A DNA stretch of 64,000 nt from Rhizophagus irregularis (taxonomy: Eukaryota; Glomeromycota; Glomeromycetes; Glomerales; Glomeraceae), in contig NC_089451.1 in NCBI RefSeq assembly GCF_026210795.1, positions 1 to 64,000 of the forward strand, read 5' to 3'. A program made the translations under genes and the position numbers. Below, in pieces: positions 32,072 through 62,902 of the stretch (positions are counted from its first letter, which is position 1; each line of letters opens with the position of its first letter). The notes under the pieces are model-generated. The model worked only from the letters and a program-made list of their open reading frames with translations, had not been told where the DNA came from and did no database searches.

Positions 32072-33159
32072 TGAGATCCCCCAATTCCCTCTGTCATCAA
32101 TTTACAGAGTTGCCACATCGAACGGGCATTCTCATGGTCGAACGAACGAACAAATGAACAAACGAACAATTAAACTAACAAGCGATTAATCAACAACATA
32201 ATTAACAAACAATACAATTAACGAACAATGTACAATAACATTCTTGGTTCACAACATAAATAGCGTTAGTAATATAAAACATTAAACGATATAAAATAAA
32301 TTTTACTTCTCTAAATTTTTCCCAAATTATATCCACTTTTACCTTTAATTACAAACTTCGATAGCTCTCGCTACGAATCATTACTTTTCACAATGTATAT
32401 TTAATTCTTCTTAAAATTTCCGTTTTTCAATTAAAATTAATTAAGCAAACATTAATTAAAGTTTAGGGCGAACCTATTACCTTTAATTAACATTAAACTT
32501 TACTAACAAATAATTAAAAAAATAAAACTTATATTTTTATTGAGTTCTGTGGATGAGAACTATGGAATTACTTTGAATTCCGTTCTCTATATATACAATT
32601 TTTATACTACTTTCTATTCTATCTATATACTATCTTTTATGTTCTTTACATATTATCTTTGAACTATCTTTCTAATATACTATCTATATTTTAAATACGC
32701 TATCTTTTAATATACTATCTTTTAATATGCTATCTTTTAATATGCTATCTTTTAATATATATATTATCTTTTATAATATCTTTGTATTATCTTTTTATAT
32801 TGTCTTTTATATTCTTTAATCTTTCCGACATTATTTTATATGTTCTTTCAATCCACTTTATATGTTTTGCTTATAATCTATCTTTTGTGGCTTATAATTA
32901 TTCTTTCTTATCGTTCTTATTGTTAAAGATCGCTAAGCCGCAAATGATCGACTCTATTTATCCTATTGGTTCCTTGTTAATCTTTCAATAAATATTACAT
33001 CATGTAGATCATTACTCCTCCTAAATGTTTATCCTTTTCGGCTAATTATTTATCCATCCACGCCAATTCACAATTAATTTGTTCGTTTTTAATATTTGGT
33101 AATTACATTTGGCGATTAAATTTTATCATATTTTCATGCTTGATATTCGGCCGTTTACA
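32072..33159 (-). repeat. gypsy 3' LTR (minus-strand element)
   Basis: 1088 bp, reading TGTAAACGG...GGGATCTCA on the coding strand. It contains a cgaacgaacaaa microsatellite (32140-32180) and tandem ttttaatatgctatc units (32690-32760). Confidence 0.95.
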
Positions 33160-33235
33160 TTATCCCCCTCTTCGCTATTTGTGACCTCACAAATAACTTT
33201 AATAGAATCGAACTCGTGTCTTATCCATAATAGTT

Positions 33236-34462: not shown

Positions 34463-34522
34463 AATACTTCTTTAATTGGTTTCGCTTCTAAATTTGTTAT
34501 TCTCGTTATGTGTTCCGTATTT

Positions 34523-36604: not shown

Positions 36605-36639
36605 CTTTTCCGTCTCTCTCTCTTCAGAGCCAAGACTTT

Positions 36640-37155
36640 CTATTTAAAATTCTGGTGCATTCTGAATACTTCCCCTTCATCGTTACTTTCGTATTCTTCA
36701 TCGTCCTCGCTCTCCTCACTTTCGTATGCTGCTTCTCTTTCATATCCTACTGGAATCGTTATTATCTCTCCCTGTTCTTCTATTCTTAAGGTATGATCTT
36801 CAAAATTTATTTTTGCATTATACAGCTTCCATATATCATTTCCCAAAATTAGATCCTCCTCTTCTGAATCGATTACTTCAACTTCTTTTAATATCTCTAA
36901 TTCATCTTTGTATCTTAAAATTATATTTGCCTTTCCTAATGCTGCTATCTTTTGTACATTTGCTATTGTACATCTAAATTTACTTTTTCCAAATATAGGT
37001 ATATTCAATCTTCTTCTTAATTTATCTGTTATCACACTTACTGCTGCTCCGGTATCTATTATTACATTCACTAATTGATCCTCGACTTCTAATTCTGTTC
37101 TCATTGCTGTAGTTCTCTTCTCTTCATTTTTCATAGTTCCCACCGAGTGTAGTCA
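36640..37155 (-). CDS. gypsy aspartic protease, gag readthrough product
   Basis: The retropepsin motif is VNVIIDTGAAVSVITDKL, with LILGNDIWKLY as the second conserved strand. The acidic tail is EEYESNDEGE. It is in the same frame as gag. The gag stop at 37155-37153 is UGA followed directly by CUA, the well-known leaky readthrough context in viruses, so a gag-protease fusion by stop readthrough is likely. A Met at 37143 could also start it. Confidence 0.88.
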
Positions 37156-40100: not shown

Positions 40101-40719
40101 TTAGTTCCTTTACTTTCTCCTCATTCATAGCTATTCCTTCTTCCTCATATAGTAATTCCCTAAATGTCTTTATTGCTCCCATCTTTACTCGTAATGGTCC
40201 AACTTCTTTTGATGTGATTCTATACCATTGCCAAAATTTCTCAAACCTTCTTTCAACATCCCAATCTTCCAAAATATATTTGTGTTCTATTAATTCAGGA
40301 TTTCCAATTAATCTATCAAATACTTCATTCCCCAGATTTCTTTCAATACAATCTCTTACAATTACTAATATAATTGTTCGTAATCCCTTTTCTTTTATTT
40401 TCGGCTGTATCCTATATCTTATTGATTCTGTTATTCTATCCATTATGTCTCTACATTTCCCTTTATGTATTGTATCTTCTCTTTCTGAATTATTCATACT
40501 TAATAAATCTAATACTCCCTTAATCGTTACATCATTATATATTATTATTGCGTCTTCAAATTTAAATAATGCGTCCCAAAATTTCTTGAATACTATTGGT
40601 TCATTTACTATTGGATAACATAATTCACAATTTAAACATTCGTCCAATTCTTCTGTTCCTAATTCGTGTTCCTCTTTATGTGTTCTATATTCGCTTTCCC
40701 ATTGATGGTACCATTCCAT
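37153..40719 (-). CDS. gypsy Gag with long N-terminal zinc-ribbon extension
   Basis: 1188 residues, much longer than ordinary Ty3/gypsy Gag (roughly 300-500). Residues from about 650 on hold the usual part: LRGAAAQWYNEMKEA, then RRKKMLELRKIRQEINESIE (retrotransposon gag domain), and a CCHC knuckle CFGCNRVGHYKNNC near residue 957, then Asp/Tyr-rich and Arg-rich stretches. Residues 1-640 are highly charged, with Cys pairs: CLNCELC near 35, CERCGNR...CGEC and CERCEIR...CKDC, which look like two zinc ribbons. An acidic DE-rich segment follows. The extension has no family I recognise. Confidence 0.88.
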   Translation of the reverse strand: MEWYHQWESEYRTHKEEHELGTEELDECLNCELCYPIVNEPIVFKKFWDALFKFEDAIIIYNDVTIKGVLDLLSMNNSEREDTIHKGKCRDIMDRITESIRYRIQPKIKEKGLRTIILVIVRDCIERNLGNEVFDRLIGNPELIEHKYILEDWDVERRFEKFWQWYRITSKEVGPLRVKMGAIKTFRELLYEEEGIAMNEEKVKELMSSIEYENINIENVHEYHKSMVQKIIRIFIDTRGFTKEPEDSESENSPASYELENSSEEELEIIIGDKSWKFSELERRTSSMDKDQLRYIWKIGIKLMIEMDILVTKMFIDKIQEIEEMDEREKESKIREWLEKETVICERCGNRRFEMDKADSECGECIKETRKNEQDELAELKDDLEKLGYEIDVSEIQRMKSFGVNNRIIITKEFVEEYMGMIDLEDKELRKEIYKWLNENTTWCERCEIRWMNDMFRLGGTVCKDCEEEDIDEIDDRVKRLQKIFEDIGTIITEEELLRLTSMGYTDGEILDKEFIEIFQENKNESEKELKKKLDKLLKEQAGIIDSEESGKKSDNEESEEDNTDDSEKTGEILSPDEIWDENIENFNEEEFEDETENVINRGDIDLSQNSDTNSSLNIKNSDNESELSDYNLQDLFQENTLNMATENQVKRLLENAIGYPANTLNAAVGAGGSLMERIENAGNEAGGTISIPLFYGKEDEDVSDWVRQFEVAFTAVGKAAGANGIRQAAYAAAHLRGAAAQWYNEMKEANAGHLVNWVDADNDNDLKHRIKRRFTREDVRRKKMLELRKIRQEINESIEEYTRRFRQILRIATRGHALADELQVDAYIEGLEPTIGYQVRRQNPGNLNGAIEIAVREESAKDEFMRKAMGVPVSTKIDIGRDDNRQNMFAKPLNENYEDELAEMFKEKAKISKLERQVAIMERRLNNGNGNRYRPNMGRRLNNGNRNSYQPNQNRIPTCFGCNRVGHYKNNCPEGRNARVNMIDEYDDQEEYYYDEYGYKEPQYNEIYYTQGYYDDYEDGELNYHNELYAKDDAVKGRRQSRRTSPIAGYKNNNEEGNLQEELREAGNRMDDREIPSGTTAPNYIHEQTEQNGDRMIRPKGMKWSNKRQAYYDPTEGLKKWREAGGPTKPREYGPRLTDGIPPYDIVGDVKNCRANITFGQLVNGNTKYHKQLREGTYRPRSMNEKN

Positions 40720-42305
40720 TGTATGCTTTAGTTAAATTGCTACGAATATCCATCCAGAATCTCAATCAGACTTCTCTCTCTATATATATATATTTCACTC
40801 TTATCACTTCTATTTTTAATCTTCTAAACATTCTTTTATCTTTAAATAGATTACTTCTTTCAATCTTTAGATTCCATCTTTCGGTTCTATATATTTACTA
40901 CGTCATATTTTACTATTAATTTTTGCTGCGCCTTAAAATTTCAAAAATTTTTCTAAGTCCACGATCTTCTCAGGCTGCGGAGGTTTTTACTGCGCCATAA
41001 AATTTATCTTTTATCACTGATATCCATAATTTCACATGTCACATCTTTTTGTCACCGTGATTCATAATTTCACTTGTCACATATCACAAACTCCAAAATT
41101 TTCATAACTTTTAAAGTTTGCGAATTTCCAATCTTTCTTATCGTCCACATAATTCCTTCTTACTAAATTCTATATTATATAAATTAATCTATAACTTGCA
41201 AAATGTCGTTCTTTTCAGATAAATGTCCTTCTTTTCAAATAAATGTTCTTTTTCAAATAAATATTCTTTTTCAAATAGATGTTCTTCTTTTAAATAAATG
41301 TTCTTCTTTTAAATAAATGTTCTTCTTTAAATAACTGTCCTTCTTTTCAGATTTTACTCTATTATTAAATACTGCACGTAATGTTCATTATACGGCTCGT
41401 TAATGTGTAAATATCCTTCTATTTTATCTTCTTTTAACGGAACATTGTAATGAGAGCGTGAACTAGGACACTACACCAGGAACCCTCATCTGAAATGTAG
41501 CCTAGGACCTGTAACAATACAACGTATCCGTCTTTTCCTTCTTCGTTGGCCGACTTGTTTCTCAACAGGTGAATCTAACCTTCCAAAATCCAGTTTCAAA
41601 AGTCATCAGCTATCCTCAAAACTCATCTAAACCAACTTTCTTAAATTGGTGGACCTATACTGGGCTTATCTCTATCTTTTTCCCTTCGGTCAAAGCATGA
41701 TAGTTTACAGGTTTGTCCCATTTTATCCATTCAACGTTTCTTGATAGTAGGTGTCTTTACAATCTTCATTCCCCGTCCCCAAAGCAATTCGCACGTTATT
41801 GAGCTGGGTATCCAGATTTGACGTAACCCATACGTTATAATCTTTAATATCGAAGAATAAAAATTTTCCAATCTAGAGCATTTATCCAAAATCCAAACTC
41901 AGAGGTAACCCATACCACACAGATGAACCCGGACAATACATTGGTGTTCTCCCATTATTAATCTTTATTCCAAAATTTATCTTTCACTTCCCCATCTCCT
42001 TATGAAATTTCTCAGGTACTTTATTCCCGAAAGAAATATTCTTGTGCTTTCTATCGATTAAATGATTACTTGCACAACTTCAAACTCCAATCTTTCACCT
42101 TTCCAAGTTTTTAACTCGTTAAATCCTTATTGATTTATTGGTTCCTTTTGAACTCGTTAAAACCTGAAATCTAAAAATAAATTCTAAAAATAAAATATTG
42201 ATTAATAATACCTATCAGTGACTTACTAACGAAATTAATTTTCATATTCATTATAATAATAATCATGTGATGATGATCATTTCCTTTCTCGGAGCATGCA
42301 CCATA
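40720..42305 (-). other. gypsy 5' leader with 20-bp tandem repeat
   Basis: 1.6 kb between 5' LTR and gag. It holds about seven tandem copies of an aaataaatgttcttctttt-type unit at 41205-41350. It starts with the candidate primer-binding site (42303-42290). No ORF is supported; a long leader would fit a packaging or internal-initiation role, but this is not shown. Confidence 0.6.
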
Positions 42306-43393
42306 TGAGATCCCCCAATTCCCTCTGTCATCAATTTACAGAGTTGCCACATCGAACGGGCATTCTCATGGTCGAACGAACGAACAAACGAACAAACGAA
42401 CAATTAAACGAACAAGCGATTAATCAACAATATAATTAACAAACAATACAATTAACGAACAATGTACAATAACATTCTTGGTTCACAACATAAATAGCGT
42501 TAGTAATATAAAACATTAAACGATATAAAATAAATTTTACTTCTCTAAATTTTTCCCAAATTATATCTACTTTTACCTTTAATTACAAACTTCGATAGCT
42601 CTCGCTACGAATCATTACTTTTCACAATGTATATTTAATTCTTCTTAAAATTTCCGTTTTTCAATTAAAATTAATTAAGCAAACATTAATTAAAGTTTAG
42701 GGCGAACCTATTACCTTTAATTAACATTAAACTTTACTAACAAATAATTAAAAAAATAAAACTTATATTTTTATTGAGTTCTGTGGATGAGAACTATGGA
42801 ATTACTTTGAATTCCGTTCTCTATATATACAATTTTTATACTACTTTCTATTCTATCTATATACTATCTTTTATGTTCTTTACATATTATCTTTGAACTA
42901 TCTTTCTAATATACTATCTATATTTTAAATACGCTATCTTTTAATATACTATCTTTTAATATGCTATCTTTTAATATGCTATCTTTTAATATATATATTA
43001 TCTTTTATAATATCTTTGTATTATCTTTTTATATTGTCTTTTATATTCTTTAATCTTTCCGACATTATTTTATATGTTCTTTCAATCCACTTTATATGTT
43101 TTGCTTATAATCTATCTTTTGTGGCTTATAATTATTCTTTCTTATCGTTCTTATTGTTAAAGATCGCTAAGCCGCAAATGATCGACTCTATTTATCCTAT
43201 TGGTTCCTTGTTAATCTTTCAATAAATATTACATCATGTAGATCATTACTCCTCCTAAATGTTTATCCTTTTTGGCTAATTATTTATCCATCCACGCCAA
43301 TTCACAATTAATTTGTTCGTTCTTAATATTTGGTAATTACATTTGGCGATTAAATTTTATCATATTTTCATGCTTGATATTCGGCCGTTTACA
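42306..43393 (-). repeat. gypsy 5' LTR (minus-strand element)
   Basis: 1088 bp, the same length as the other LTR and differing from it at about six positions, for example near 42390, 42410, 42428, 42568 and 43272. Confidence 0.95.
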
Positions 43394-43577
43394 ACGTGCT
43401 GAAATTTATTCCTTTCAACGATCTTTAGATAACAAATTCGATCACTTATCCAGTTCTATTGAAAGATTTATTAGCTCCATTTCTGGTGGCTCTTCCTCGG
43501 ACTTAGTCAATAAGACTTCGTCTGATTAATTTGTTATTCTCCCCCTTTCACCCCGTAGTTCTTATCATAGTGTAATA

Positions 43578-46500
43578 ATGATGGACAATAATATAGATTA
43601 TGATACTTTTGTGCGAAATCCCCCCAACCCCGTTGATTTTAGTGATATTTTTAATGATCCTATATCTGATACATTATTTTCTCCCTCTTCCTCTACTTCC
43701 CCCATCCCCAATTCTTTTAACATTTCTTCCTTTAATGTTAATAGTCTTAAAACTCCTGGTCAAAGTTCCTTTAAAATGGACCAAATTTCTTCCTTTTTTT
43801 CTCGTAATCACATCTCCTTTGGTGGCATTGTTGATACTCATTTATCACCCAAACAAATGAAATTTTTATCTAAGCGAGTTTGTGATTATACTTCTTTTCA
43901 TTCTGATTTGGATTCTACCAAACACGGCCGTTCCTCTGGTGGTGTTTCTTTGTTTATACATAGCTCTTTAGCTACGCATGTTCAATTTTATCAATCCCAT
44001 TCTTCTCAAATTCTTTCTGTAGACTTATTTTTTAAAGGCAATGTTAAATTGCGTATATTTGTCATCTATATCCCCCCTACAAATGATCTTGTTCTTCGTT
44101 ACGAAGTCATTGATCAATTAATTTCTCTTATTTCTCAAACTTCTTCACAAAATTTTCACTATGCTATTTGCGGTGATTTTAATATGAATCTGGAGAAATA
44201 TTACCCTATATTTTTGCACCAACCTCAGGTTGCTGCTAAACGTATTCACAAATTATTTCATTATTTGCTTTCTCATAATTATGAGGATTGCACCCCTCTT
44301 AATTTATCTGGTACTTTAGGTACTTGTCACCATTTGGACACTATTACCTGTATTGACTTTGTTTGGTCTTGTCCACTTCTTCGTCAATATATGTTAACAG
44401 CTTCCATTTTTGATGCTCATGATTTACACATTTCTGACCATAACCCTATTATTACATATTTTGATGTTTCATTATTATCAGATGCTATTAAATCTGCACG
44501 AGCTCGTCAACTTAGTCACAATACTCGACGTGTCTTTAAATATGATTCTATTTCTACTGAACGGTGGACTGTCTTTGCTGATGATTTGGATAAATTATGT
44601 CCAATTGATCCACTTATTTTTGATGCTTGGTCTCTCAATCAGAAGTGTGAATATCTTCATTCTAGGATTATCAAGGCTGCTAATTCCGCCTTACCCTCAG
44701 TTACTGTGGGCAACACCTATGTTCCAAAAAAGCCTAAAGACTTGGAAAGTTTATGCCAGTCTTATAGATTTTTGTCTAACGTGGCTAAAACTATCCGTTC
44801 CCTTCATAAGACCCCTACATCATATTCTATTCATCATGAAACCAAATGGTCTTCATATTATATACGTCTTAACAATCTTTTATCCCTTTATAAACAAACA
44901 TTTGTTACGCCTATTATCCTTCCTCCCCTTCTTCGAGATGCAAGAATTGATGATTTTGTTAATTTACTTCAAATGATAGAGAATATGACTCTGCTTTTGC
45001 GAAGCCTACTTTTGCTTAAAGAAAAAGAATTCCAAGCTTCCTCTATTCAGGCAAAAATTGATGCTCGGAATGATAACTTCACCAATGATATTTCCACTTT
45101 CATTGAGTCTGCTTTGTCACGAACCAGACGACGAATAGTTCTTGACCGTGTTTTTATTGATCATCCAACACACCCTACTTTATTAACTTCTCCAGATGCT
45201 ATTGATCAAAAAGTTATTGATCATTTTCAAAATTTTGTTCCAATTACTTCTACTCCTCCTTCTTCCATACAGGATTTGCCTGAACGATGGTCTAATGCTT
45301 ATACACCACTTGCTGATGTTTCTCCAGCTATTTTTGATTCACTAATAGATCCTTCTACCCTTGATGAATGGTACTCAACAATTTCATCCATGCCTAACGA
45401 TAAAGCCCCAGGTCCTTCTATGATCTCGTACGAGATGTTAAAACACCTAGGCCCTTCTGCTTCTACCTTGCTTTTCAACTTAATTTGTGCTTGTTTATCA
45501 GAAGCAAATATCCCTAATTTATGGAGACAAGCTACTGTTTTTCCTATTCCTAAACCGCATGAATGGAAATGCCAACTTAAAAATACACGTCCTATCACTT
45601 TACTGGAGGTGATTCGTAAGGCTTTGGTTAAACTTTTTTACAATCGTCTTGCTCCTTTGCTTGCCTCTCACCATGTTCTCCAAGGCGGTAATTTTGCAGG
45701 TTTACCTGGAGGGTCCTGCCGTGATCCTATTATTACTCTGGAATCCATCATCCATGATTCGGTAGTTACTAAACAACCCTTATGGATTCTTTCTCAAGAC
45801 ATTTCAAAAGCATTTGATTCTGTGGATTTATCTATGTTGCGTTTTGCTCTTCAACGTTTACGTTTGCCTCAAAATGCAATTCAATTCTTACTCTCTTTAT
45901 TTATGTCACGTTCTAATCGTGTCATTACTGCACATGGCCCTACTCCACCATATAGAGTTAGAATTGGAATAGACCAAGGTGAAGTTATCTCTCCGCTTTT
46001 ATGGGTTATTTATTTAGACCCTTTACTTACAACTCTCAGAAATGAGAAGAAATACCCTTATCGTTTGGTCTCTCCATTGGCTCCCTATACTGTTTCATCA
46101 AATTCTTGTTCTCCAGATGTTTTAGAAATTAATAATTTGGTGTTCATGGATGATTCTACTTTACTCTCTTCTTCTAAAGAAGGAATGGAACATATGTTGT
46201 CTATTACTGAAGAATTTTATTGTTTAAACAATACCTTAGCCAATCATAACAAATATGTTTTAGCCACTAATGCAGTCGCTGCTTCTCGAGATTTGTCTCC
46301 TATAGCCTTTAATTTGTCGATTTCATCGCTCAACTCCACGCCCAACATTATTGTTACTCCTATCCCTATGTCCTCATCTTTCCGGTTTTTAGGAGTTTGG
46401 TTTAATATTAACGGCTCTAGGAACTTTATCCGACAACAACTTAAACGAGAATGTAATTCTTTCTCTGCAATTCTTCGCCCTGCGAAACTAACTGTTCAAC

Positions 46501-49229
46501 AAGTGGTGTATCTTTATAATACTGTTTTGATTCTGAAATTGGACTATTGAATGCAAGTTACACATTTATCTGAGGCTGAATGCTCCACTATTACCTCTTC
46601 AGTTCATGCCTTAGTTAAACATAAAGCCAAATTATCACGCTCTGTTCCTAATGTGGTATTATATTTAACACATGCTTTGGGTTTAATCAATTTATTTTCA
46701 TTTCAACAACAAAGTCATTTTACTAATTTATTTTTGTTAGCAAATTCTTCTTCTGTTTTTATGAAATCATTATTTAATTATAGGTTGCGATTTATTCAAT
46801 TTTATTGTTTAATTCCTATTTCTCTCTTGATGGTTTTGGATTGGACTTGTTGGTCTTCTCTTATAATTTTTAAACAAAATTATATCGCTAATACTCTAGC
46901 TTCATTGCTCTCAACTCCCTTTCGCTTGTCACGCGCTAATCTATCATCTGTGCTTAATTTAACCTACCCCAATGGCCATACTCCTATTTATCAATGTCTT
47001 TCTTTAGATGTATTTAAAGCCAATTTAACAAGACTTCGAAAACGTGGCCTTTTCTACCTTTCGCAACTTTTGACACCTCAAGGAACACATTTGCTCTCTT
47101 GGTCTATCATATATGCTAATTCTGTTCAAAAGCGTGGTAATGCCCACCTTTCCATGTGGTACAAAAATCTCTCTACTAATGTCACGATTCCAGATAAACC
47201 TGGTTTATTAAGAGATCGATTCCTGACTGAACAACAACCTGTGAGCCTGATTGCAAAAGAACTTGCTCCTTGCATTCCTCCTTCTGGTTATAAGAAGAAT
47301 TGGATTGTTACGCTGAATGATAATGGCCTTCCCTTATTCGGCAAACAGATTCAGATCCAACCCAAACGCTCCACTTGTACTATTGTATATTGGACTTCAG
47401 ATTGTTTATCTCGTCTGAGCGATTTAATTACTCTACGACCTTGTCCTGGCTGCAACTTAAATATAAACAAATCTTCCTATTCAAAGAAATCAGTTGCTTC
47501 TGGTTCTGTTTCCTGCTCTTATTCGGCCTCTCTTCGTCAGTCATGGATCTTACCTATAAAGAAATCATCCATTTTGAATCACACATCCAGCTTGACTGCT
47601 ACGGTGTCGTGAGCGGAAATTATGGACTTTGTTACCGCATCTTGTAATCCGTTAGGTTGCTCGATGCTTGCTGTTGATATTCCCCATACCTCCTTTGATA
47701 TTATTGATGAGGCTTTGCCTACTCCACATTTACTTACGGCTGGCGATATTGCTGCTTCCTCATCGGTCGTGCTTTCTCTAGACTCTCAATATACCTTTTA
47801 CACTGATGGTTCTCTTATCAATTTAGAAACGTATGATGTTTCTATGGGATGGGGCTGGGTTCAAATTGTCAAGGATTCTGGCTTTCTCAACTCTATTGCC
47901 ACTTATAATAAGCGGGGTATTATTTGTGATTGGCCTTCCTCTTCTCGAGCCGAAGCTGCTGCTATTTATGCAGCTTTATCAGCTTCTCCTGCCAATTCTG
48001 TAGTTCACATTTATACAGATTCACAGTCTTCCATCGAGGGTTTGAAACATTGTTTCTTATCTGATTATTCAGATTCTCATCTTTATTATAAGACTACCAA
48101 TTTTGAACTTTGGGCCATCATCCAACAACTGATTGTGGATAAACAACTTTCAGTTTTACCTTTCAAGGTTAAAGCTCATTCTAATTTTTATTGGAATGAC
48201 TTCGCTGACTCTCTTGCCAATACTGCCCATACATCTGACAATGCTATTCTTATCTCCCGCCTCGATCTTGCCACGGTTCATGATTATATTATGACTTATG
48301 ATGACGTAGTCTGTGAATCCAACCCAAGACATCTGTTTAAACAATATCATCAGATGTTGTATATGAAAGATCTTTTAGCCCTTTCTCATTTCTGTTTCAT
48401 TTCTCTTTTAACAGATCCATCCCGATACGTGGTTGATTGGACTCTTACTTGGCATACGTTAATGTTCCAACCCAAATTTGATAATTCCTTCACTAAGGAA
48501 AATGTCTCTAGACATCATACGTTGAAATTTCAACTTTTTCTGGAAGACTTACCTACTTTGGAATCACTGAAAAGGACACGACCTGATTTATACGTAGAGA
48601 TTCTAACCTGTCGTTCTTGTGAAGACCACTTAGAAGATTTTATGCACTTATTTTTATGTAAAAAGCACCGCGTTAAATTACATCAAATTTTAACGTCATA
48701 TCTTCACCATCTTACCCAAAAAATTAAAGAAGCGGGTGATAATTACTCTTCTTCAATTAATAGAGTTACTTCCCTCCCTTGCTGGACTTTTTCGTCTAAC
48801 AACTGGTCTTCCTATAGTCTTGTCCGTGGCTGTTTGCCTACCGCCTTTCTGGAAGTTTTTGAAAACTTAGGTATTCCTCACCTCACTGCTATGAATGTGG
48901 TCGCCGCCATACATAACAATTTTATCAACAAATTCTGTAAACGAATTTGGAATCCACGTTCGTATGATAAAGGATTATGGGAACATACGATGAACATTTC
49001 TTCAAAACTTAAACAATCTTCAAGGCCTAAAGGTTTGCCCAAATCTTCTTATTTACCTTACTCGTTTTTACCACCTCCGACCCATATTGATTCACGTGAC
49101 TCCGGAACCGATTGGTTAAAAAATTCAATGCAATATGGATTATCTTGGTTTAATCACATTTCGGGTTTTATGGGTCGTCTAACGGTGCTACTTAATAACC
49201 GCTTTTGCAGGATGGAGTGTCAATTTTAA
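43578..49229 (+). pseudogene. LINE ORF2: EEP endonuclease, reverse transcriptase, RNase H; two TGA stops
   Basis: One frame of 1883 codons with only two in-frame stops, both TGA (46548-46550 and 47610-47612). The endonuclease has FNVNSLKTPG, CGDFNMN (about 197) and ISDHNPI (about 287). The reverse transcriptase has KAPGPSMISYEM, RPITLLEVIRKALVKL, SQDISKAFDSVD, GIDQGEVISPLLW and FMDDS (about 856; FADD in most LINEs). RNase H has YTDGS (about 1408), AEAAAIYAAL and YTDSQSSIEGL. The C-terminus has a CRSCEDHLEDFMHLFLC knuckle. The contexts LDY*MQ and TVS*AEI fit Arg (CGA) to TGA changes. Otherwise it is open, so inactivation is recent. Confidence 0.9.
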
Positions 49230-49838: not shown

Positions 49839-50048
49839 CACAGGTCGAAATGCTAAAAATCGGCAAAAAAAATGGCGTGAAAAGCAGTGGCTATTCTTGG
49901 CTATTCTTAGCTATTGTTAGCTATTCTTGGCTGTTTTTGGCTATTTGCGAATTAACCTATACTATTTGTAAATAGTTTATATAAATTTGCGAATAGTTTA
50001 TGCAATTCTAGCCATTTTTTTTGCCTGTTTTTGGTCATTTGACGTGTG
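49839..50048. mobile_element. CACTA-like MITE (CACAGGTCGAA end), 210 bp
   Basis: Left end CACAGGTCGAAATGC, right end gacgtgtg. The arms share ggcaaaaaaaatggc and its complement. The 3-bp target duplication is aga (49836-49838 and 50049-50051). It belongs to the same terminal family as 18305-19946 and 55958-61666. Confidence 0.7.
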
Positions 50049-51782: not shown

Positions 51783-53747
51783 AGCAATAAAAAAAAATAC
51801 ATAACATATATATAAAAATAATAGGTGGTTAGCAAAAGCTAAGTGAATAAGTCGATAGTCCATGGAAGCATTCTTCAGGATTGTTCCATTTAAGAACCGA
51901 GACTGCCTGGAGGTACAAGACCTCATCTTCAGGTGACCCATCTAAGAACCGGACAGCTCTGAGAGTATAAAACTCCGTCTACAAGCGACTCCATTAGAGA
52001 AATACAACCATGAACCTTGTGTACGATACCCACTTTTCAAAAATTTTACGGTCATCATACGCTTCGCTTTGAGCGTCTTAAAACGCTCCTTAGATTTTTT
52101 CTGCGAGGTTGTGGAACGGCGAGAACAGGACCCAGAAATATATATATAGGGGTAGGGTACAGGAATGCGTCACCATCATAGTAACAATATACGAGGTAAA
52201 GTTTGAATTTGCGTATTATTTGAGACTTTTTTGGCCATAGTCTGATCATCAGATTGCATATTTTTGGCCAAATTTATTATATGTAAAATATTCCATTTGC
52301 GTATTTTTAGCCTAAATTTGGAAAATTATATATTATATATATAAAATTGAACACGTTGTGAATAAAAATTAACCTGTTGATCAGCAATCTATGATATATC
52401 AGAGATATATCTTGCATTATTGTTTGAAAAAAAAAATTTTTTTTCTTTGTCTTTTTGTTATCTGCTTATCTTAAATATGCCAAGTTGGAAATATAGCTTC
52501 GAAAGACTTTCAAAACATGAATATGTTGCTTGTGTTATACATCCTAAAAAAGTAGTGTGTATTTGTGGAAAAAAAATAAAATTAAATCGAAAATGGGAAG
52601 AAGATTATCTTAACCGTCATGTTCAACGTTCTGGATGTAAAGCAGATAAAGGACAAAAAACACTTTATAACTGGTTTAAACCAATAGAAAAAACCGAAGA
52701 AGAAGAAGAATATGATTCTGATGTATATGATGATATGGATGATGATGATTTAATCCGAATTGATGAAATAGATGATAACGATCAAAATCAAGAATTTTTA
52801 GATAATATTAATATTGAAGAAACAAGTGATACAAGGAATGCTAAAAAAAGGAAGTTAATTTGTATTGGCCTTCAATCTGAAGAAATATTAAAATACATTA
52901 AGCGAACTCCTGCACAATTTGGAGGTAGTCGTCGTGTTGAAGTTGTTGCACGCGAACTTTTTCCTCATTTGTTTTCACAGAAATTCAGCAGAAAAAAAAT
53001 GGATCATAAACAAAAAAGGAAATTAAATCGACAACTTTTTGCAGAATCCATATGGAAGATTGATCGATTAAGTATGTATTTATCAAGTATTTTATCAAGT
53101 ATTTTAGTTTTTTTTTTAGTTATTGATTTTTTTAATAATCTTTTAAAGGTAATTCTGTTCGTGCAAAAACTTGTACTGGAATTGCTGAAGAAGTGAATGT
53201 ATGTATCGAATGTTCTTCAATTCGATATAACAAAAATTTGAGCAATAAAATTGCTCGTCCTTTACCATTGCCTGTTAATGTCAAATTTACCCCAAAACAT
53301 TACTGGGAATATAACCCCTTAAAAAAAATTCTACAAAATTTTGATCTCTGTGACATTTGGAACAATCTTAACAATGAATCTGAAATTCAAGCAGAAAATC
53401 CGTGGATCACTCTGGCTGATAAAGCACTAAAAGGTGCTTTTAAAGACGTACCAGTATTCACTGGTCTTTGCGAAGTGATGGGTAATGCTATTGAAAGAAA
53501 AATGAAAAATCAAAGTAAAAGAAATATGAAATATAGTGACGAATTTACAAACTTTTTAGTCATATTAGGAGGGTTTAGTTCAAGGGCTCTAGATTTATTT
53601 CGTCAAAATTTAGAAGGCAGAACAATTCAATCAATTCGGTATAATTAATTAAATTTATAAATATATATTTATTTAAATTTGGTTTTTTATTTTATTTTAC
53701 TTTAATTTTATAGGCAGTTAAGAAGAAACGATGAGGATTGTTTGACT

Positions 53748-54046
53748 AGGACCCCGGATATCTCCAAAACAGGTCATAAGTCACACTTTCGGCAGATTGG
53801 CCCATTTTTCGAAATAAAAACAAAAAATCGTTTTTTGTAAATATCTCGGCATCCAGTGGTCCAATTTTGATGAACATTTTTTTAAATTGTAGAGCTAAAT
53901 GAGGGCTACAAAATAAAAAAAGTTCATTAAAATTGAATTACTGGATGCTGAGATATTTACAAAAAACGATTTTTTGAGTTTCAGCAAAAAGGGGTGTTTT
54001 TGGCCAAAAGTCCATTATGACCTTTATATTAGATATTCGGGGTCCT
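53748..54046. mobile_element. F1 MITE copy 4, in transposase exon 3
   Basis: 299 bp in the opposite orientation to the other F1 copies. Exact 8-bp target duplication gtttgact (53740-53747 and 54047-54054). Removing the element and one duplication restores the transposase frame. Confidence 0.93.
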
Positions 54047-56189
54047 GTTTGACTAATCCAGATTGTTGTTATGAGAATGTTGCTAGATTTAAAAGATTAA
54101 TTGATTCAGTTCAATATAATGGTCCAGTAGTAGCTATGACTGATAATACAAAGCTAAAATCTCGTCTTCGATATTCACCAACTCTTGGATGTATTGTTGG
54201 TTCAGTACTTTCAAAAGAAGAGACAACAATCAACGTGTATTCAGATATACCAAATATTATTAATAAAATTAAAAGTGAAAAAGCTATTGCTAAAGATGTT
54301 CGTGTTTACATACTACAGGTAATATTTCATTATTAATTTAAATTATTGCTTGTTATAATTATATTTGGATATTAAATTTCACATTTTTAATTAATAGATT
54401 CCATTACCAAAATTTCCACCTGTTGTAATTGCATTAATACCAAATAAAGGAAATGATAATTCAAAAACTATTAGCCAATTACACAAAAAACTTATTCAAG
54501 AAATCGCACCTCAACTTGGAATTCATATTTTATCTATTGGTTCTGATGGTGCTATTACTGAATTTCAAGCACAACAATCAATAATTGATATTCAGACTTC
54601 TAAAAGACTTTTTATACGTGAACCATCCTTAAACATTCATTTTTCCTGTCCCGTTTTTGATAACGTTGGTCCAATAGTTCGAGTCCAAGATCCAAAGCAT
54701 GCAAAAAAGACAGCCAGAAATGCAATAATTTCTGGAGCTCGGCTTTTAACTTTTGGAACATCATCTGTTCGATACGATCATTTTCTTACCCTAATTAATC
54801 AGCATGATTCAATTATGTACAAAAACGATGTAATTAAGTTAGATAAACAAGATGATGCCGCCGCCTATCGATCTTTTTGTTCTGCAAACTTTAAGCAATG
54901 TCTTACACATGAATTTCGAGTAAAAGAAGGGATGGAAGGCTTTGCAGTATATATATTTGTTATGGGTAAATAATACAAATATTTTCAAAAAATTGGAATT
55001 AATAATTTATATTAATAATTAATCATGTAAATTAATATATTGACATTTTTTTTAAATAGGAGAACTTATTGATAGCTATTTAAATCGTAATATTTCACCA
55101 GTTGAAAGAATACGAATGGCATTAACAAGTTATTTTTTTCTTCACTTATGGCGTTTTCATATTGAAACTCTTCATCAAAAATATTCCAACTATGTATCTA
55201 TCAGGCAAAATTTTCTATCTGACCAAAGTTTTGCTATTTTTACTTCTCTTTGTGAATCAATGGTATTACTTGTAAAAGCTCACCGAGATTACTATCCTCA
55301 AATGCCTTTTCTTCATTGGTTACATAAATCTGAATCATGTGAACACTTCTTTGGTGTGGCAAGACAGATTAATTCAGATTTTGATTTTTCTGAACTTATT
55401 CAGATGTTGCCTAAGATTTCACAATATACAAAGGCCTTACGAAATAAAAAGTTAAGTTTTAATAAGGAAAGATCAGTACGTGAAGGTATGAAATTACTAA
55501 CAAAAATATAATTTGTTAATAATAATAATTAAAATATTATTTATTATCTAGGGTATCTTTTTGACTATACCTCTGATGAATTGGACAAACTATCCATAGA
55601 TAAACTCCGCTTATGGCCTGATGATGAGCAAATACTGAAAATTATTCAACATTCACGCTGTCTTGCACGGGACCTTGCAGAATATGTTGGCATAATACAA
55701 CCATCTGATATTTCTATTGAAATATTTGTTCCGCAAATCTTTGTTGAATCACATGAAGTTGATGTTTCAAGCTCTAGTATTGAAAAGCAATCTAATGAAT
55801 CCAACAATGAAAATATTGATAATGAAGAGTACGATTTATCATCTGCTATTGGTGAAGCTTCTTCAGAAATGAGACGAATTATTATTGAAACTGGTAATGA
55901 GGAACAAGATTCTAATAATAATTTTATTAAAGGTCATTCTCAGTTAAATGAAATTAGCACAGGTCGAAGGGGCACCATTGTCCAAAATTCAAAAAATGCA
56001 AATTCCCCATTTTCCTGGAAAATGGTGGGAAATTGTGAAAAATGCTGCATTACGCTGAGCAATTTTTTGGAATAGCATTGTTACAACATTGTCCGATTTA
56101 GCAAATCTTATAAAATTTTGGGAAAATGCTACATTATATCTCAAATGTAACATTTTTGTAACATTTCGTAACATTGTTATAACATTGTC

Positions 56190-57140
56190 ATTAAAATCAA
56201 ATTTTGCTTTTTTTTTGTTAAATGTTCCAATTTTCTTGCAAATGGTGCATTTTTATGAAAATTTCACATTTTACCTCAAATGTAATAACATTTAATAAAA
56301 TTGTTATAACATTGTCAATTAAAATCAAATTTTGCTTTTTTTTTGTCAAATGTTCCAATTTTCTTGCAAATGGTGCATTTTTATGAAAATGCCACATTTT
56401 ATCTTCAATGTGATATCATTGTAACAACATTTCATAAAATTGTTATAACATTGTCAATTAAATTCAAATTTTGTCAAATATTCCGATTTTCTTGCAAATG
56501 GTGTATTTTTTTATGAAAATTCTATATTTTCTGTCAAATGTTGCATATTTTCAGCAAATTTTACGTTTTTTTGGTCAAAATGTTTCATTTTCGTCAGAAT
56601 GTTAAGATTTTACATTTTTTTTTGAAAATGCTCAGTAATATAGCATTACACTGGAAAATGTAGCATTTCACCAAATTACACTAAAAAGCATCGCAATTAT
56701 CTCATTTTTTGGAAAATTCCACATTACATTAAATTATACTAAAAAATGTAGCACTATACTAGATTATGCAGCATTGCACTAAAAAATACCACAATTACAC
56801 TAGACAATGTAGCATTATACTAAAAAGTACCACAATTATCATATTTTTTAGAAAATTTCGTGTTATGCTGGAAAATGTAACATTATGCTAGAAAATTCAG
56901 AATTGCACTAAAAAATACCACAATTGCACTAGACAATGTAGCATTACACTAAAAAGTACCACAATTATCATTTTTTTTTTAAAAAATTTCGCGTTATACT
57001 GGAAAATGTAACATTATGCTAGAAAATGCGGAATTGCACTAAAAAACGCGGAATTACACTAAAAAACACAAAAAAATACTACAATTACATTGGATAACAT
57101 AGCATTACACTTAATTACATTAAAAATTGATGATAATTTT
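56190..57140. repeat. Left subterminal repeats of the CACTA-like element
   Basis: Three units of about 130 bp (56190-56500) built on tgttccaattttcttgcaaa and cattgtcaattaaaatcaaa, then roughly 20 short units of the gtagcattacactaaaaa type. Clustered subterminal repeats are usual transposase-binding regions in CACTA elements. Confidence 0.75.
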
Positions 57141-57184
57141 TATTTATTTAATTACGTACATTATTAAATTTATAATATTTATAT

Positions 57185-57345
57185 TTTAGAAATAATTTAT
57201 TTATCGCACGTGCGATGCAAATTTTTATGTTTATCATTGCCATTTTAAGGGGGGTGGCGATGTATAAGCAGGTTGATCAACATAAATAATTTACAAAAAA
57301 GGAAAGTGGCGATGCATCGCACGTGCGATGAATAAATTTACTCTA
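57185..57345. repeat. Inverted pair of ATCGCACGTGCGAT palindromes
   Basis: The perfect 14-bp palindrome ATCGCACGTGCGAT occurs at 57203-57216 and 57316-57329. Its flanks are inverted as well (tttatttatcg... and ...cgatgaataaat), so the pair forms a larger inverted repeat with a G-rich loop (aaggggggtggcg). Confidence 0.8.
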
Positions 57346-57544
57346 TATTTTAAACGCATTATTTAACATTAAACACATTGTTAATATAACACGATGTGTT
57401 GTGATGTAATTTAATACTAAACCTTACTACTGAAGACTCCCTCTTTTTGTCACTATAAACAGGCGGAGGGAGCAGCAATGGCTCTCCCCCTATAGGTACT
57501 TTATGACCTCTACCTGTTTACAGAGGAGGGGCTTTTCGTAAAGT

Positions 57545-57770
57545 ATTAGTTAATAGATATATATATATGTATATATAAGCATATATATACATCTATTTAA
57601 AATTATTAAAATAAAAAAAAAAATTCTGGGGCGGGGGAAAGCTCCTATTTATATAAAATTATATATCACGTGCGTCACGTGATATTACTTAATAATTACC
57701 GCAGCTTCAGCTGCGGTATAACGAAAAAAAAAATTAAGCTTTTTTTAGCAAAAGCTTAATTTTTTTTTCT
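57545..57770 (+). promoter_or_regulatory. Chain of palindromes ahead of the intron array (promoter-like)
   Basis: Successive perfect or near-perfect hairpins: tagatatatatatatg...catatatatacatcta, then ATCACGTG/CACGTGAT (two CACGTG boxes, about 57665-57682), then TACCGCAGC-ttca-GCTGCGGTA (57697-57718), then a long attaagc...gcttaat stem. The position just upstream of the CT-rich tract suggests a promoter. This is inferred. Confidence 0.45.
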
Positions 57771-58018
57771 CACGTCCTCTTTCTTCTTCTCTTTCCCCTT
57801 TCCCTTTCGTTCCCTTTCCTTCCCTTTCGTTCTCCCCCTCCCTTTCGTTCCATTTCCCCCTTTCCCTTCTCCTCCTCCCTTTTCGTTTCATTTCCCTTTT
57901 CTCCCCTCCATTTTCCCTTTCCCTTTCGTTCTCTTCCTCCCTTTTCGTTTCATTTCCCTTCCCTTCGCCCTTTTCCCCTCTCTTTCTCTCCCCTTTCCCT
58001 TTCCCTTCCCGGAAAATT
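57771..58018 (+). repeat. CT-rich tract (ccctttcgtt repeats)
   Basis: About 240 nt of almost only C and T, in ccctttcgttc-type units. It is reverse-complementary in style to the GA-rich tract at 59491-59691. It has no stop in the frame that enters the first micro-exon, but also no ATG. Confidence 0.8.
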
Positions 58019-58029
58019 CCAACGAAATG

Positions 58030-59490
58030 GTAAATTTTGAAGCGTTCGCTTCGAAACTTTTAATATATTTTTTTTAATTTCTTTTAGGAAACGTTTCTAA
58101 CGCTTTCTATACTCTCTTTTTTTTTAGATCTCGATATTCGATTTCAGAAATTTAGAAAATTAAGGGTAAGTTTCGAAGCGAGTTCGCTTCGAAACAGTGT
58201 TTTTTTTTTAATTTCTTTAGGAAACGTATCTAACGTTTCTTATTTTTTTTTGTGTAGGTCCTTCGGCATGCTTCTTTGGGATTCGAAATGGTAAGTTTCG
58301 AAGCATATGCTTCGAAACTTTTTGAAAATTTTTAATTTCTTTAGGAAACTTTTCTAACGTTTCCTTTCTTTCTTTTTTTGTGTAGGTCTTTTGGTATTCG
58401 ACTTCGGGAAGCAAGGAACCGAAAGGGTAAGTTTTGAAGCGTTTCGCTTCGAAACTTTTTTAAAAAAAATTATTTTTTTTTAATTTTTTGTAAGGAAACG
58501 TTTCTAACGTTTCCTATTTTTTTTTTGTAGAGATTTTTCGATATTCGACTTTGGAAGGCGAATCGGTGAGTTTCGAAGCGTGTTGTTGTACGCTTCGAAA
58601 CTTTTAAGAAAAAAATTTTTTTCTTTTTTTTGTAAGGAAACGTTTCTAAGTTTCCTTTTTCTTTTTGTAGGAACGCCGGACGTTTGGATGATGAGTTCGA
58701 AACGAACCGGTGAGTTTCGCAACATTGTGTTGCGAAACTTTATTTTTATTTATTTCTTTTTAAGAAACATTAACTAACGTTTCTTTATTTTACTTTTTGT
58801 AGGTTCCGGACGTTAGGATGATGGTAAGTTTCGCAATGTTACATTGCGAAACTTAATTTTTATTTTTTTTATTATAAGAAATGTTTATATTAACGTTTCT
58901 TTTTTACTTTTTGTAGGTTCCGGACGTTAGAATGATGGAAACGAACCGGTAAGTTTCGCAATGTTACATTGCGATACTTAATTTTTTATTTTTTTTTTAT
59001 TAAAAGAACGTTAACTAACGTTTCTTTCCTTCTTTTTGTAGGTTCTGGACGTTTGGATGAAACGACCCGGTGAGTTTCGCAACGAATCATTGCGAAACTT
59101 AATTTATTGTTTTTTTTTAAAGAAACGATATTAAACGTTTCTTTCCTTTACTTTTTGTAGGAACGCCGGAACGAATTCACGAACTGGACTTTGGGTGGAA
59201 GGTAATAAAGGGAATTTTGTTTTTGTTTATATTTTTTTCTTTATTTCTTAATGAAACGTTAACTAACGTTTCAATTTTTTTTATAGATCACCTTAACATC
59301 CACTTCTGCCAAATTGGAACTAAAATGGTTAAGAAGTTCAAAAAGAAAGTGCTTGGCAAAGGTGAATGAATTGAAGAACCCATCCAAGTAATTGGAGGAG
59401 ACAAAGGAAACTCCGGGCATTTGGTGGGGTGTTCTTTTATTATATAACGAAACATTATTTAAGTTTCGTTTATTTTTTGTTTTTTTATAG
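58030..59490 (+). other. Array of 11 mini-introns with hairpins at both splice regions (set 1)
   Basis: Introns run 58030-58127, 58166-58257, 58291-58385, 58427-58530, 58566-58670, 58710-58802, 58824-58916, 58949-59041, 59070-59160, 59202-59286 and 59362-59490. Exons between them are 38, 33, 41, 35, 39, 21, 32, 28, 41 and 75 nt. Introns 2 to 9 begin GTAAGTTTCG or GTGAGTTTCG (the fourth GTAAGTTTTG) and at once fold: AAGTTTCGAAGC pairs with GCTTCGAAACTT, or later AGTTTCGCAATG with CATTGCGAAACT. Upstream of the T-rich tract and (T)GTAG acceptor nearly all have a second hairpin such as GGAAACGTT-TCT-AACGTTTCC containing a CTAAC branch-site match. I do not recognise a family. Confidence 0.85.
58288..58816 (+). 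CDS. Candidate ORF spliced from micro-exons
   Basis: With the splice sites above, the frame entering from 58007-58029 stays open through exons of 38, 33, 41, 35 and 39 nt and ends at a TAG in the 21-nt exon. The first Met is at 58288, giving 43 residues (beginning MVFWYSTSGS, containing DFGRRIGTPDVW, ending RTGSGR); about 27 more in-frame residues lie upstream without a Met. If the 21- and 32-nt exons, which both carry the TAG, are skipped, the frame runs on to a TAA at 59493. Staying open over five splice junctions is suggestive, not proof. There is no recognised domain. Confidence 0.4.
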
Positions 59491-59691
59491 GTTAAAGGAA
59501 TGAAAGGGAAAGGTGAGAATGAAAGGAAAGAGAAAGATGAGAACGAAAGGGAAAGGTGAAAAACGAAAGGGGAATGTGAAAAATGAAAGGGGAAGGTGAA
59601 AAATGTAAAGGAAAAGAGAAAACGAAAGAGAAGACGAAAGGGAAGGGTGAGAACGAAAGGGAAAGGGAAAACGAAAGGGAATATTTCGAAG
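59491..59691 (+). repeat. GA-rich tract / long exon (gaaagggaaagg repeats)
   Basis: 201 nt of purine-rich sequence between an acceptor and a ggtata donor. All three frames contain stops (TAA at once, TGA soon after), so it is unlikely to code through. It is homologous to 10776-11045. Confidence 0.7.
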
Positions 59692-60491
59692 GTATACTTC
59701 GAAATTTTTTTATTTTATTTTTCAACGAAGTGTTTATTAACGCTTCATTTTTTTTTTTTTAGGTTCGGCGGCCATTGGACAGACCAGAATTCAATATTTC
59801 GAAGGTATACTTCGAAATATTTTTTATTTTTATTTTTTTCAACGAAACGGTTATTAATGTTTCGTTTTTTTTCTTTTTTAGGTTCAGCAGCTCATTGGAC
59901 GTATGGAATTCAACATTTCGAAGGTATGTAACTTCGAAATGTTTCTTTAATTTAATTTTTTTCACGAAACATAAATTAATGTTTCGTTTTTTTTCTTTTT
60001 TAGGTTCAGCGGCTTATTGGACGTATGGAATTCAACATTTCGAAGGTATATAACTTCGAAATGTTTTTTTAATTTAATTTTTTTCATGAAACATAAATTA
60101 ATGTTTCGTTTTTTTTCTTTTTTAGGTTCAGCGGCTTATTGGACGTATGGAATTCAACATTTCGAAGGTATATAACTTCAAAATGTTTCTTTAATTTAAT
60201 TTTTTTCATGAAACATAAATTAATGTTTCATTTTTTTTCTTTTTTAGGTTCAGCGGCTTATTGGACGTATGGAATTCAACATTTCGAAGGTATATAACTT
60301 CGAAATGTTTCTTTAATTTAATTTTTTTCATGAAACATAAATTAATGTTTCGTTTTTTTTCTTTTTTAGGTTCAGCGGCTTATTGGACGTATGGAATTCA
60401 ACATTTCGAAGGTATATAACTTCGAAATGTTTCTTTAATTTATTTTTTTTTACGAAACGTATATTAATGTTTCGTTTTTTTTCTTTTTTAG
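59692..60491 (+). repeat. Seven mini-introns alternating with 42-nt exons (set 2)
   Basis: Introns 59692-59762, 59805-59881, 59924-60003, 60046-60125, 60168-60247, 60290-60369 and 60412-60491 (71, 77, then five of 80 nt). The six exons between are all 42 nt: 59763-59804, 59882-59923, 60004-60045, 60126-60167, 60248-60289 and 60370-60411. The last four are identical and the second differs by one base. In one frame each encodes VQRLIGRMEFNISK, but the other two frames are also open. Here the 5' hairpin spans the junction: exon CATTTCGAAG pairs with intron CTTCGAAATG, leaving GTATATAA as the loop. The second stem is ACGAAACAT / ATGTTTCGT. The last acceptor leads to an exon with a stop within 12 codons. 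Confidence 0.88.
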
Positions 60492-60949
60492 GTTTTCTAT
60501 TTTGGCACTGGTGCAGATTATCCATAGATTATCGGATATCTGATAAATATAGATTATCGTTAAATAATAATAATTGTGCATTTATTAATAAATAAAATTA
60601 TAATAGATTATAAATCAGTGTTTTAAATTGTCATGGCGTTTACACTAAATTGTTTAAAATTATTACTAAATTTCGCTCAATTGTCCGAAAATTTCACTCA
60701 ATTATCTGAAATTATTGCAAAATTTCACTAAATTATCTTCGAAAATGTTGCATTTATATCGTTTACACTCAATTGTCCAAAATCGGTAAAACATTTTCAC
60801 TCAATTGTCTGAAATTATCCTAAATTTCACTAAATTATTCAAAAATCTAGCTAATATTTACCAAAAAAATGCAAAATTCACCACAATTTTCCACAATTTG
60901 TATTACGTTTGCACAACATTGCTGAAAAATTCACCTAAATTTTCAACAA

Positions 60950-61480
60950 TTTACATAATATTACTAAAAATACATTACAATTTACCACTATTTGCATTAC
61001 GTTTGCATAACATTACTAAAAATTTAACTAAATTTACCACAATTTGCACTTCGTTTGCATAGCATTACTAAAAATTTAACTAAATTCACCACAATTTACA
61101 TTACGTTTACATATAATTACTAAAAATTTAACTAAATTACCCACAATTTGCACTTCGTTTGCATAGCATTACTAAAAATTTAACTAAATTCACCACAATT
61201 TACATTACGTTTACATATAATTACTAAAAATTTAACTAAATTCACCACAATTTGCACTTTGTTTACATAACATTACTAAAAATTTAACTAAATTTACCAC
61301 AATTTGCACTTCGTTTGCATAAAATTACTAAAAATTTGCCTAAAATTCACCACAATTTACATTACGTTTGCATAAAATTACTAAAAATTTAACTAAATTC
61401 ACCACAATTTACACTTCGTTTGCATAACATTACTAAAAATTTGCCTAAAATTTCCCACAATTTAATGATAATTTACTGAA
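60950..61480. repeat. Right subterminal repeats of the CACTA-like element
   Basis: About nine units of roughly 60 bp: ccacaatttgcacttcgttt, then gcataacattactaaaaatt, then taactaaattca. The same unit is found at 12120-12470. Confidence 0.85.
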
Positions 61481-62902
61481 AAATTTCTCAACATTTGAAT
61501 TAGAAATTCTGTAGGAATTCCGCCATTTTGACAAAATTTGCCAAATTGTAAGTCCTCCATTATCCCAAAATTGTAACACAATTTACCTCAATTTACCGGG
61601 ATAATTCTCAATTTGCCAGAAAAATTCCAGGCAAATTTTGCGACAATGACATCTGTTCGACCTGTGTAGTCAACCTCCTGATAACTTGTATATATTAAAT
61701 AACGGGGATAGCGGTAAATTTTTTGATTTTAATTTTTTTTTAAAAAAAAATTTTGAGGATGAATATAACTGGATACTTTGCTGTGTAACATCTTTATACA
61801 GAAACAAACATGACAATCATTTAAAGTAACAATTTAAACATTAATATTTACTATTACAGTTGATTTGTCACATCGGTACTTATTATTTGATAAATTGGAT
61901 TTTGAGTTTTTATATAATCAACGAAAACTTCATGAGGCATATAGTTCAAAACCTCTTGAGCAAAAATTCAAAATTGTTGGAGCAAGTTCAAGAATAACAG
62001 AAGAAGTAAGTTCAATTCAGCCAAATAAAGCCAGTCATATTGTTGCTTATTTCACCAAAAATGAAAATCCAGAACAAAGATTTGTAACCCAAAGGGAGAA
62101 GCGATGGAAAGATAATCGAAAAAATATTGCTATAATATTAGCACAGTTACATGCTCAAGAATTGGCTAAATCTAAAAAAGAAAAAAAATCAAATAAAAGA
62201 AACGCTCAAGAAGGTTTGATTGAAAGTAAGTTTTATAATAGTCATGTTTCTAAAAAAAAATTTATTTTAATCTTTATTAATTTTTTTTTTAAAAAAAAAA
62301 TAGTTCCAAATATTGAAACTGCTAATATATGTACAAATTTTCCATTAGAGATAGGAGATTATGTATTTGTTCGATATGATTTACAGATGTGCGTTGGACG
62401 AGTTGAAGCTTTGTATTTTGAGGCATACAATCACCATTGTTATACTCGTGAAGCCATTAAAGACCTTAACGATATTTCATATATTTCGCTACATGTATTT
62501 ATGCCTTTATATTTGGAATTATTTACTGATAAGATTAAGGAAGGTTGTTATATCCTTACACATCAAATTCCTTCAAATATTGTATATCATATTAAACAGG
62601 ATGGGGTAGTAGTTGAGGGAAATTTTCTAAGATTAGTTGGCAATGAAAAGCGATACTATTTTAATTATTTTGAACGAGAAGATATTATTGAAAAAATGTT
62701 AAAATAAGTGATTTTATTAAATAATGAATCGTTATAATAAATCATGTGACATTAAAGTTAGAAATTTGATTTGCGTATTTTTGCCAATTTTTAAATGTCA
62801 AGTGCTAAGAATGCGTACCACTCTTATAAAAAACCCTTGCGTACAGCTAATAGTAAAATTTTTGATCATCACCTGACCCCTATATGTATATTTCTGAGTC
62901 CT

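Follow-up and report, generated by a model that had tools for sequence, protein, structure and literature searches.

What kind of genetic element is formed when 18 short GT..AG segments, nearly all of them bearing hairpins, follow one another head to tail on one strand of the Rhizophagus irregularis genome? A preliminary description had read the series as structured mini-introns inside a DNA transposon and had proposed an intron-multiplying module or a transposon device. We analysed the same 64,000 nucleotides, the first 64 kb of contig C23 (hereafter the window), and searched the whole assembly (146,748,485 bases, 32 contigs) for related sequences. The reading that we prefer, with a probability of roughly 60%, is that a non-autonomous transposon of the CACTA/EnSpm type carries a spliced, mostly non-coding transcription unit that grows by tandem duplication of exon plus intron. 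The features of the locus, with the basis of each in brackets, are as follows.

55955..55957, no strand: left copy of the target-site duplication (TSD), TAG (flank comparison)
55958..55982, + strand: left terminal inverted repeat (TIR), CACAGGTCGAAGGGGC(A/G)CCATTGTC (flank comparison, genome pattern search)
56122..57046, no strand: left subterminal tandem repeats, periods of about 128, 41 and 20 bp (repeat search)
57189..57343, no strand: palindromic insertion of ~155 bp in this copy (near-copy matches break at 57188/57344)
57344..58010, + strand: conserved block upstream of the array, C/T-rich at its end (kept in diverged elements)
58030..59160, + strand: introns 1-9, with exons of 21-41 nt (intron map, folding, profile model)
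58030-58127, 58166-58257, 58291-58385, + strand: introns 1-3
58427-58530, 58566-58670, 58710-58802, + strand: introns 4-6
58824-58916, 58949-59041, 59070-59160, + strand: introns 7-9
59202..59286, + strand: intron 10, weak donor GTAATA, branch-point hairpin present (map; folding; predicted protein P0003 crosses the junction)
59287..59691, + strand: long exons 11 and 12 around doubtful intron 11 (inverted pairs I1, I2, I5; map)
59424-59490, + strand: doubtful intron 11, weak donor GTGGGG
59692..60491, + strand: introns 12-18, with six 42-nt exons (repeats, map, folding)
59692-59762, 59805-59881, 59924-60003, 60046-60125, + strand: introns 12-15
60168-60247, 60290-60369, 60412-60491, + strand: introns 16-18
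60492..60600, + strand: putative last exon, AATAAA at 60587 and 60591 (sequence)
60950..61463, no strand: right subterminal 52-bp tandem repeats (repeat search)
61642..61666, - strand: right TIR, GACAATGACATCTGTTCGACCTGTG (flank comparison, genome pattern search)
61667..61669, no strand: right copy of the TSD, TAG (flank comparison)

Our map of 58030-60491 agrees with the tandem array of 18 GT..AG mini-introns first described, although the lengths differ: introns measure 67-105 nt rather than the 71-129 nt claimed, and the exons between them 21-42 nt, save two long ones of 137 and about 200 nt. Most donors are good, as had been stated, but those at 59202 (GTAATA) and 59424 (GTGGGG) are weak, and the donors of introns 10-12 are uncertain. 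The statement that nearly every intron holds two perfect palindromes proved slightly too strong, since no donor palindrome is present in introns 10 and 11 and several stems contain a mismatch (e.g., intron 8). Intron 1 has the donor GTAAAT in the window and GTAAGT in all nine near copies. Introns 1-9 form one related set and introns 12-18 another, the latter with a period of 122 bp. We consider the block at 57344..58010 a putative promoter and read the two AATAAA motifs as possible end signals of the putative last exon. The G/A-rich repeat that makes up exon 12 can pair with a C/T-rich stretch preceding the array; the two repeats (57760-58010 and 59490-59690) are complementary over up to 47 nt at 85%, so that introns 1-11 could be enclosed by a long stem in a transcript. 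The window has no match in Rfam, and a known RNA family was rejected on that ground.

Comparison of the flanks of near copies showed that the array lies, as first suggested, inside a DNA transposon, a 5.7-kb element at 55958-61666 with inverted ends of the CACAGGTCGAA type, which read CACAGGTCGAAGGGGC.. and ..GACATCTGTTCGACCTGTG. Duplications of 3 bp flank eight of ten near copies (TAG in the window; TTA, TTT, ATA, ATA, TCT, AAA and TAT elsewhere); among the ten, no matching duplication was seen in L016, whose right end is altered, or in L017. TIRs beginning with CAC and a TSD of 2-3 bp are the hallmarks of CACTA/EnSpm elements. Genome searches found the left-end pattern CACAGGTYGAAGGRGC at 68 places and the right-end pattern GACATCTGTTYGACCTGTG at 71 (no matches in either control), and these ends form 54 pairs less than 20 kb apart. 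An exact TIR pair encloses 29 of the 40 array loci listed. Eleven pairs are longer, at 7.9-9.1 kb; one of them has an array match and ten do not, and each of these ten contains, among the matches listed, a transposase piece at 91-100% identity. The piece itself matches no Pfam model, and its CACTA/Tnp2 type is assigned through distant relatives, which directly adjoin matches to PF02992 (Transposase_21, Tnp2 family): C20:993913-994392 lies beside a match at 993430-993891, and C23:3340101-3340580 beside one at 3340602-3341063. Because long elements with the same ends carry this piece, the elements with arrays would seem to be non-autonomous and to belong to a CACTA/EnSpm-type family. Wholly inside 55958-61666 there is no + strand open reading frame of at least 120 aa, and the single - strand frame of that size has 147 aa. 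In nearly all near copies the matches skip the palindromic segment 57189..57343. Inverted-repeat searches around two arrays of unrelated sequence, L013 and L025, gave no clear transposon ends.

The element is inserted in a transposase-like gene, reading-frame pieces of which lie on both sides (52381-56075 and 61838-62707). This split gene spans 52381-62707 and is not assigned to a family; all Pfam matches were below the cut-off, and the names they suggested were dropped. No right end of a larger element around it was found within C23:60001-70000. Elsewhere in the window are a second element with CACAGGTCGAA-type ends (~1.6 kb, 18305-19946), two further left-end-like sequences at 49839 and 50432, and a possible remnant of a relative of the array element at 10776-12416, where 52-bp tandem repeats come after G/A-rich ones, much as at 60950 and 59500.

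An intron scan requiring a donor, a T-rich acceptor and hairpins gave 11 calls in the 64-kb window, all inside the array; no call came from the other strand of the window or from the 100 kb of sequence obtained by Markov-resampling 58000-60500 40 times. Four of the 11 calls join the right acceptor to a GTATGG that belongs to the exon part of the 122-bp repeats, so donor choice in these repeats is ambiguous to the scan. The reversed and complementary strands of four loci yielded no calls. On the complementary strand of other loci there was one call in L012 and four in L014, the four belonging to another array.

A profile of the nine first introns, built without the donor hexamer and the last 4 nt, was then run on 10 diverged loci. 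It produced 157 matches, 124 on the array strand versus 33 on the other. The 92 full-length units on the array strand have GT at the donor in 89 cases (GTAAGT 75, GTGAGT 14) and end in YAG in 89; the base before the donor is G in 84/89, and the base after the acceptor is G or A in 86/89. Donor position 3 is exclusively A or G in 91 of the 92 units. On the other strand only one match was full-length, and that one had no GT. The invariant A of the CTRAY/TTRAY-like branch-point motifs sits in the second hairpin. Since GT, the branch-point motif, a T-rich tract and YAG recur on a single strand with constant spacing, we infer that these are U2-type spliceosomal introns, which would be removed from RNA in vivo. 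Among the ten near-identical copies, GT/AG changed in 4/578 cells versus 78/10435 other non-CpG intron cells, and donor positions 3-6 changed slightly more often (10/588). The dinucleotides thus change as often as other non-CpG intron sites, and no current selection on splice sites is seen in these recent copies; in this comparison most substitutions hit CpG sites, and the 3' repeats of L012 are partly shifted in the alignment.

Most array introns have one small hairpin at the donor and one at the branch point. Folded with 14 nt of upstream exon, the introns of the window gave a mean z of -4.77, with 16 of 18 below -2, and diverged units gave -4.91 (35/35 below -2), versus -0.57 for six ordinary introns of the interrupted neighbour gene (0/6 below -2). 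In the predicted folds of most of introns 2-9 the stem of the first hairpin takes in part of the donor hexamer; in introns 12-18 the donor would lie in the loop, the end of the exon forming the 5' arm. Covariation was examined over 17 predicted pairs in 44 units of less than 93% identity. Paired cells amounted to 96.7% versus 87.6 +/- 0.6 in shuffles, the covariation score was 0.357 versus 0.185, and sliding the partners by 1-3 columns left 38-54% paired; both controls ignore the relatedness of the units. Two-sided change occurred in 11 of the 17 pairs, in donor and branch-point hairpins alike, and as judged from these alignments both hairpins are maintained by compensatory change. In three arrays of unrelated sequence (L013, L016, L014), all 20 introns folded have a predicted hairpin in contact with the donor hexamer, and most of these introns have a second one at the branch-point motif. 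No branch-point hairpin was seen by eye in array L038, indicating that the two-hairpin plan is not universal.

The preliminary description had named an assembly artefact as a possible explanation and a search for further copies as a check. Nine more copies of 58100-58800, at 96-98% identity and with other flanks, occur elsewhere in the genome, which makes an artefact unlikely and led us to reject it. Across ten near copies of 58000-60500, substitutions cluster at CpG (~6-8% of cells versus 1-2% elsewhere), as expected for a methylated transposon. Among the matches listed, whole 122-bp exon+intron units are present in some near-identical copies and absent from others. The array therefore turns over by tandem duplication and loss, in line with the internal multiplication first proposed and with the tandem periods.

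Arrays of this kind are widespread. The donor-hairpin pattern GTRAGTTTYG-N8-20-CRAAACTT has 1,124 genome matches (538 and 586), a few palindromes being counted on both strands, and none in the reversed control; the palindrome pattern without the GT requirement has 1,594 sites (control 26). Contig C1 (8.0 Mb) holds 68 donor-hairpin matches in 29 clusters, which extrapolates to ~530 clusters genome-wide. Sixteen of the 29 are single matches; all four of these that were fetched lay within further arrays, and none was a lone intron in an open frame. A 21-nt core of the upstream block occurs exactly at 54 places (control 0), and of the five listed on C1 and C2, four are within 2 kb upstream of donor-hairpin matches.

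We considered whether the array might be a protein-coding family of micro-exons, whose tiny exons, used alternatively, would yield short, variable proteins. NCBI entries named 'unnamed protein product [Rhizophagus irregularis]' do match spliced translations across the predicted junctions (P0001, E 6.4e-24; P0002, 2.3e-15; P0003, 4.7e-8). P0003 follows exons 3, 4, 6, 9 and 10 and continues into 11, and the 3' exons have eight more protein matches, two below E 1e-3 and six weaker. Pieces of another such protein, OCT59_007266 (P0008), lie in order at C15:2527541-2528716 with 54-94% identity, a spread that may reflect either pieces that overrun exon edges or a source in another array. The 42-nt exons keep frame, and exon frames are somewhat more open than composition shuffles (106/189 versus 82.9 +/- 6.3). 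Against a coding role, the reverse strand is more open still (150/189), of the 63 inner exons flanked by neighbouring called introns only 10 have a length divisible by three, and in the ten near copies exons change more than introns at non-CpG positions (130/8017 versus 78/10435 cells). Moreover, homologous exons are read in several frames. Exon 4 gives VFWYSTSGSKEPK-like, SFGIRLREARNRK and LLVFDFGKQGT-like peptides in different proteins, which together use all three frames, and P0002 reads homologous exon 4 copies in two frames within one protein. No single reading frame is kept, as a micro-exon gene would require, and on these grounds we rejected a coding gene; translation as the purpose of the array seems to us rather improbable, and its exons look mostly non-coding. 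Annotation pipelines place introns at the array junctions, perhaps with RNA support for them, and the gene-model proteins over the array may be ab initio predictions.

It is unlikely, in our estimate, that the array is a transposon satellite acting at the DNA level, whose palindromes would serve as cruciforms or as transposase or replication sites and whose splice-like signals would be incidental or fossil. Palindromes together with long subterminal repeats would suit a satellite, as would the unconstrained GT/AG of near copies, and hairpin tests on one strand cannot separate RNA from DNA hairpins. A satellite would not, however, account for a donor position 3 restricted to purines, for a branch-point motif that stays CTRAY/TTRAY-like while the stems change, for strand-specific acceptors, for gene models that use the array junctions, or for hairpins in the same place relative to the splice sites in unrelated sequences. 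Another view holds that the hairpins or lariats are themselves the product, the array being processed into small RNAs or stable intron RNAs. We think this very unlikely: perfect short hairpins in series would fit it, but Dicer products usually come from longer stems than these of about 8-15 bp, and Rfam has no match in the window. That this fungus makes abundant small RNAs from young genomic regions, according to the available part of PMC10234402, speaks in its favour. Least credible to us is an introner-like module in which individual hairpin-introns escape from the array to serve as introns in host genes, a possibility that the preliminary description had proposed to test. The many genome copies and the strong folding, which is typical of fungal introner-like elements, are what such a module would show, but the single matches fetched were all in arrays, TIRs and TSDs mark the ends of the transposon rather than of the introns, and the six ordinary introns next door are unstructured.

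Under the reading that we favour, a transposon-borne mostly non-coding transcription unit, the + strand of the element would hold a Pol II-like unit made up of the conserved upstream block, from which transcription may start, the 18 mini-introns and the last exon with AATAAA. The introns would be spliced serially by the spliceosome, leaving a mostly non-coding RNA. In almost every intron one predicted hairpin lies over the 5' splice site and one holds the CTRAY/TTRAY branch-point motif, and these could make each tiny intron recognisable as a local unit by shortening the path from donor to branch point and by hindering pairing between near-identical neighbouring splice sites. Alternatively, the hairpins might cover the donor and in this way act as a gate on splicing. 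Pairing of the donor in a stem could also make access harder for U1, and the data are compatible with either role, organiser or gate. Whole exon+intron units would be gained or lost in tandem, and the transposon would carry the array through the genome. Whether this amounts to a new class of mobile cargo is a bolder proposal, to which we give somewhat less than an even chance: transposon-borne, mostly non-coding 'intron trains' at hundreds of loci, with a hairpin at nearly every 5' splice site and branch point, in which exon+intron units multiply selfishly in tandem and structured introns organise or gate the splicing of one long RNA.

Several known systems resemble the array in part. Non-autonomous CACTA/EnSpm elements with cargo are known (Pack-CACTA type), and the present element shares with them a TIR starting from CACAG, a 3-bp duplication, subterminal repeats and ends in common with transposase-bearing elements; its cargo differs in consisting of structured mini-introns with no recognisable piece of a host gene. 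The micro-exon genes (MEGs) of schistosomes likewise have many tiny exons in series, but MEG exons keep frame and code for secreted proteins, whereas array exon lengths are mostly not multiples of three. Introners and introner-like elements of fungi and Micromonas, as far as covered in the available part of the survey PMC9860276, are also repeated, similar spliceosomal introns with a link to DNA transposons. They occur as single units in many host genes, with intron ends that are the ends of the mobile unit, whereas the array has head-to-tail units with exons and the mobile unit is the whole of 55958-61666, bounded by TIR and TSD. In that part of the survey the terms 'Glomero', 'Rhizophagus', 'hairpin', 'tandem' and 'palindrom' do not occur. 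Hypoxylaceae stwintrons, as presented in the accessible parts of PMC9024468, PMC8469720 and PMC12403724, are related fungal introns in repeated copies too; they are nested, whereas no nested introns were found in the array, where units stand side by side. Among titles and abstract openings of the open-access literature, we found no description of such arrays. We file the array as a variant that joins two known kinds, CACTA cargo and an array of spliceosomal introns; the head-to-tail structured mini-introns and a transposon cargo built on splice signals, both pointed out in the preliminary description, hold in our analysis.

If the array is spliced as its sequence suggests, it would be a natural experiment in which the spliceosome must pair dozens of near-identical sites around exons of 21-42 nt, with compensatorily maintained RNA hairpins at the two sites read by U1 and U2. 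Transposons would then propagate whole intron trains, intermediate between introners and ordinary genes, and questions of intron birth and of how the host treats transposon RNAs could be put to a direct test in a major plant symbiont. Proteins predicted from array loci in R. irregularis may be artefacts.

The window also contains other repeats and mobile elements. At 32663-43047, with open reading frames at 33236-40731 on the - strand, is a Ty3-like LTR retroelement with gag, reverse transcriptase/RNase H and integrase by Pfam; its RNase H is followed by a weak thymidylate-kinase-like P-loop stretch (PF02223, E 0.0011, 19.1 bits versus a cut-off of 27). A tandem 49-bp unit holding the palindrome GCATTTTTACTAGTAAAAATGC occupies 7030-8024, and the long + strand open reading frames at 43530-49229 have, by eye, the look of a LINE-type retroelement.
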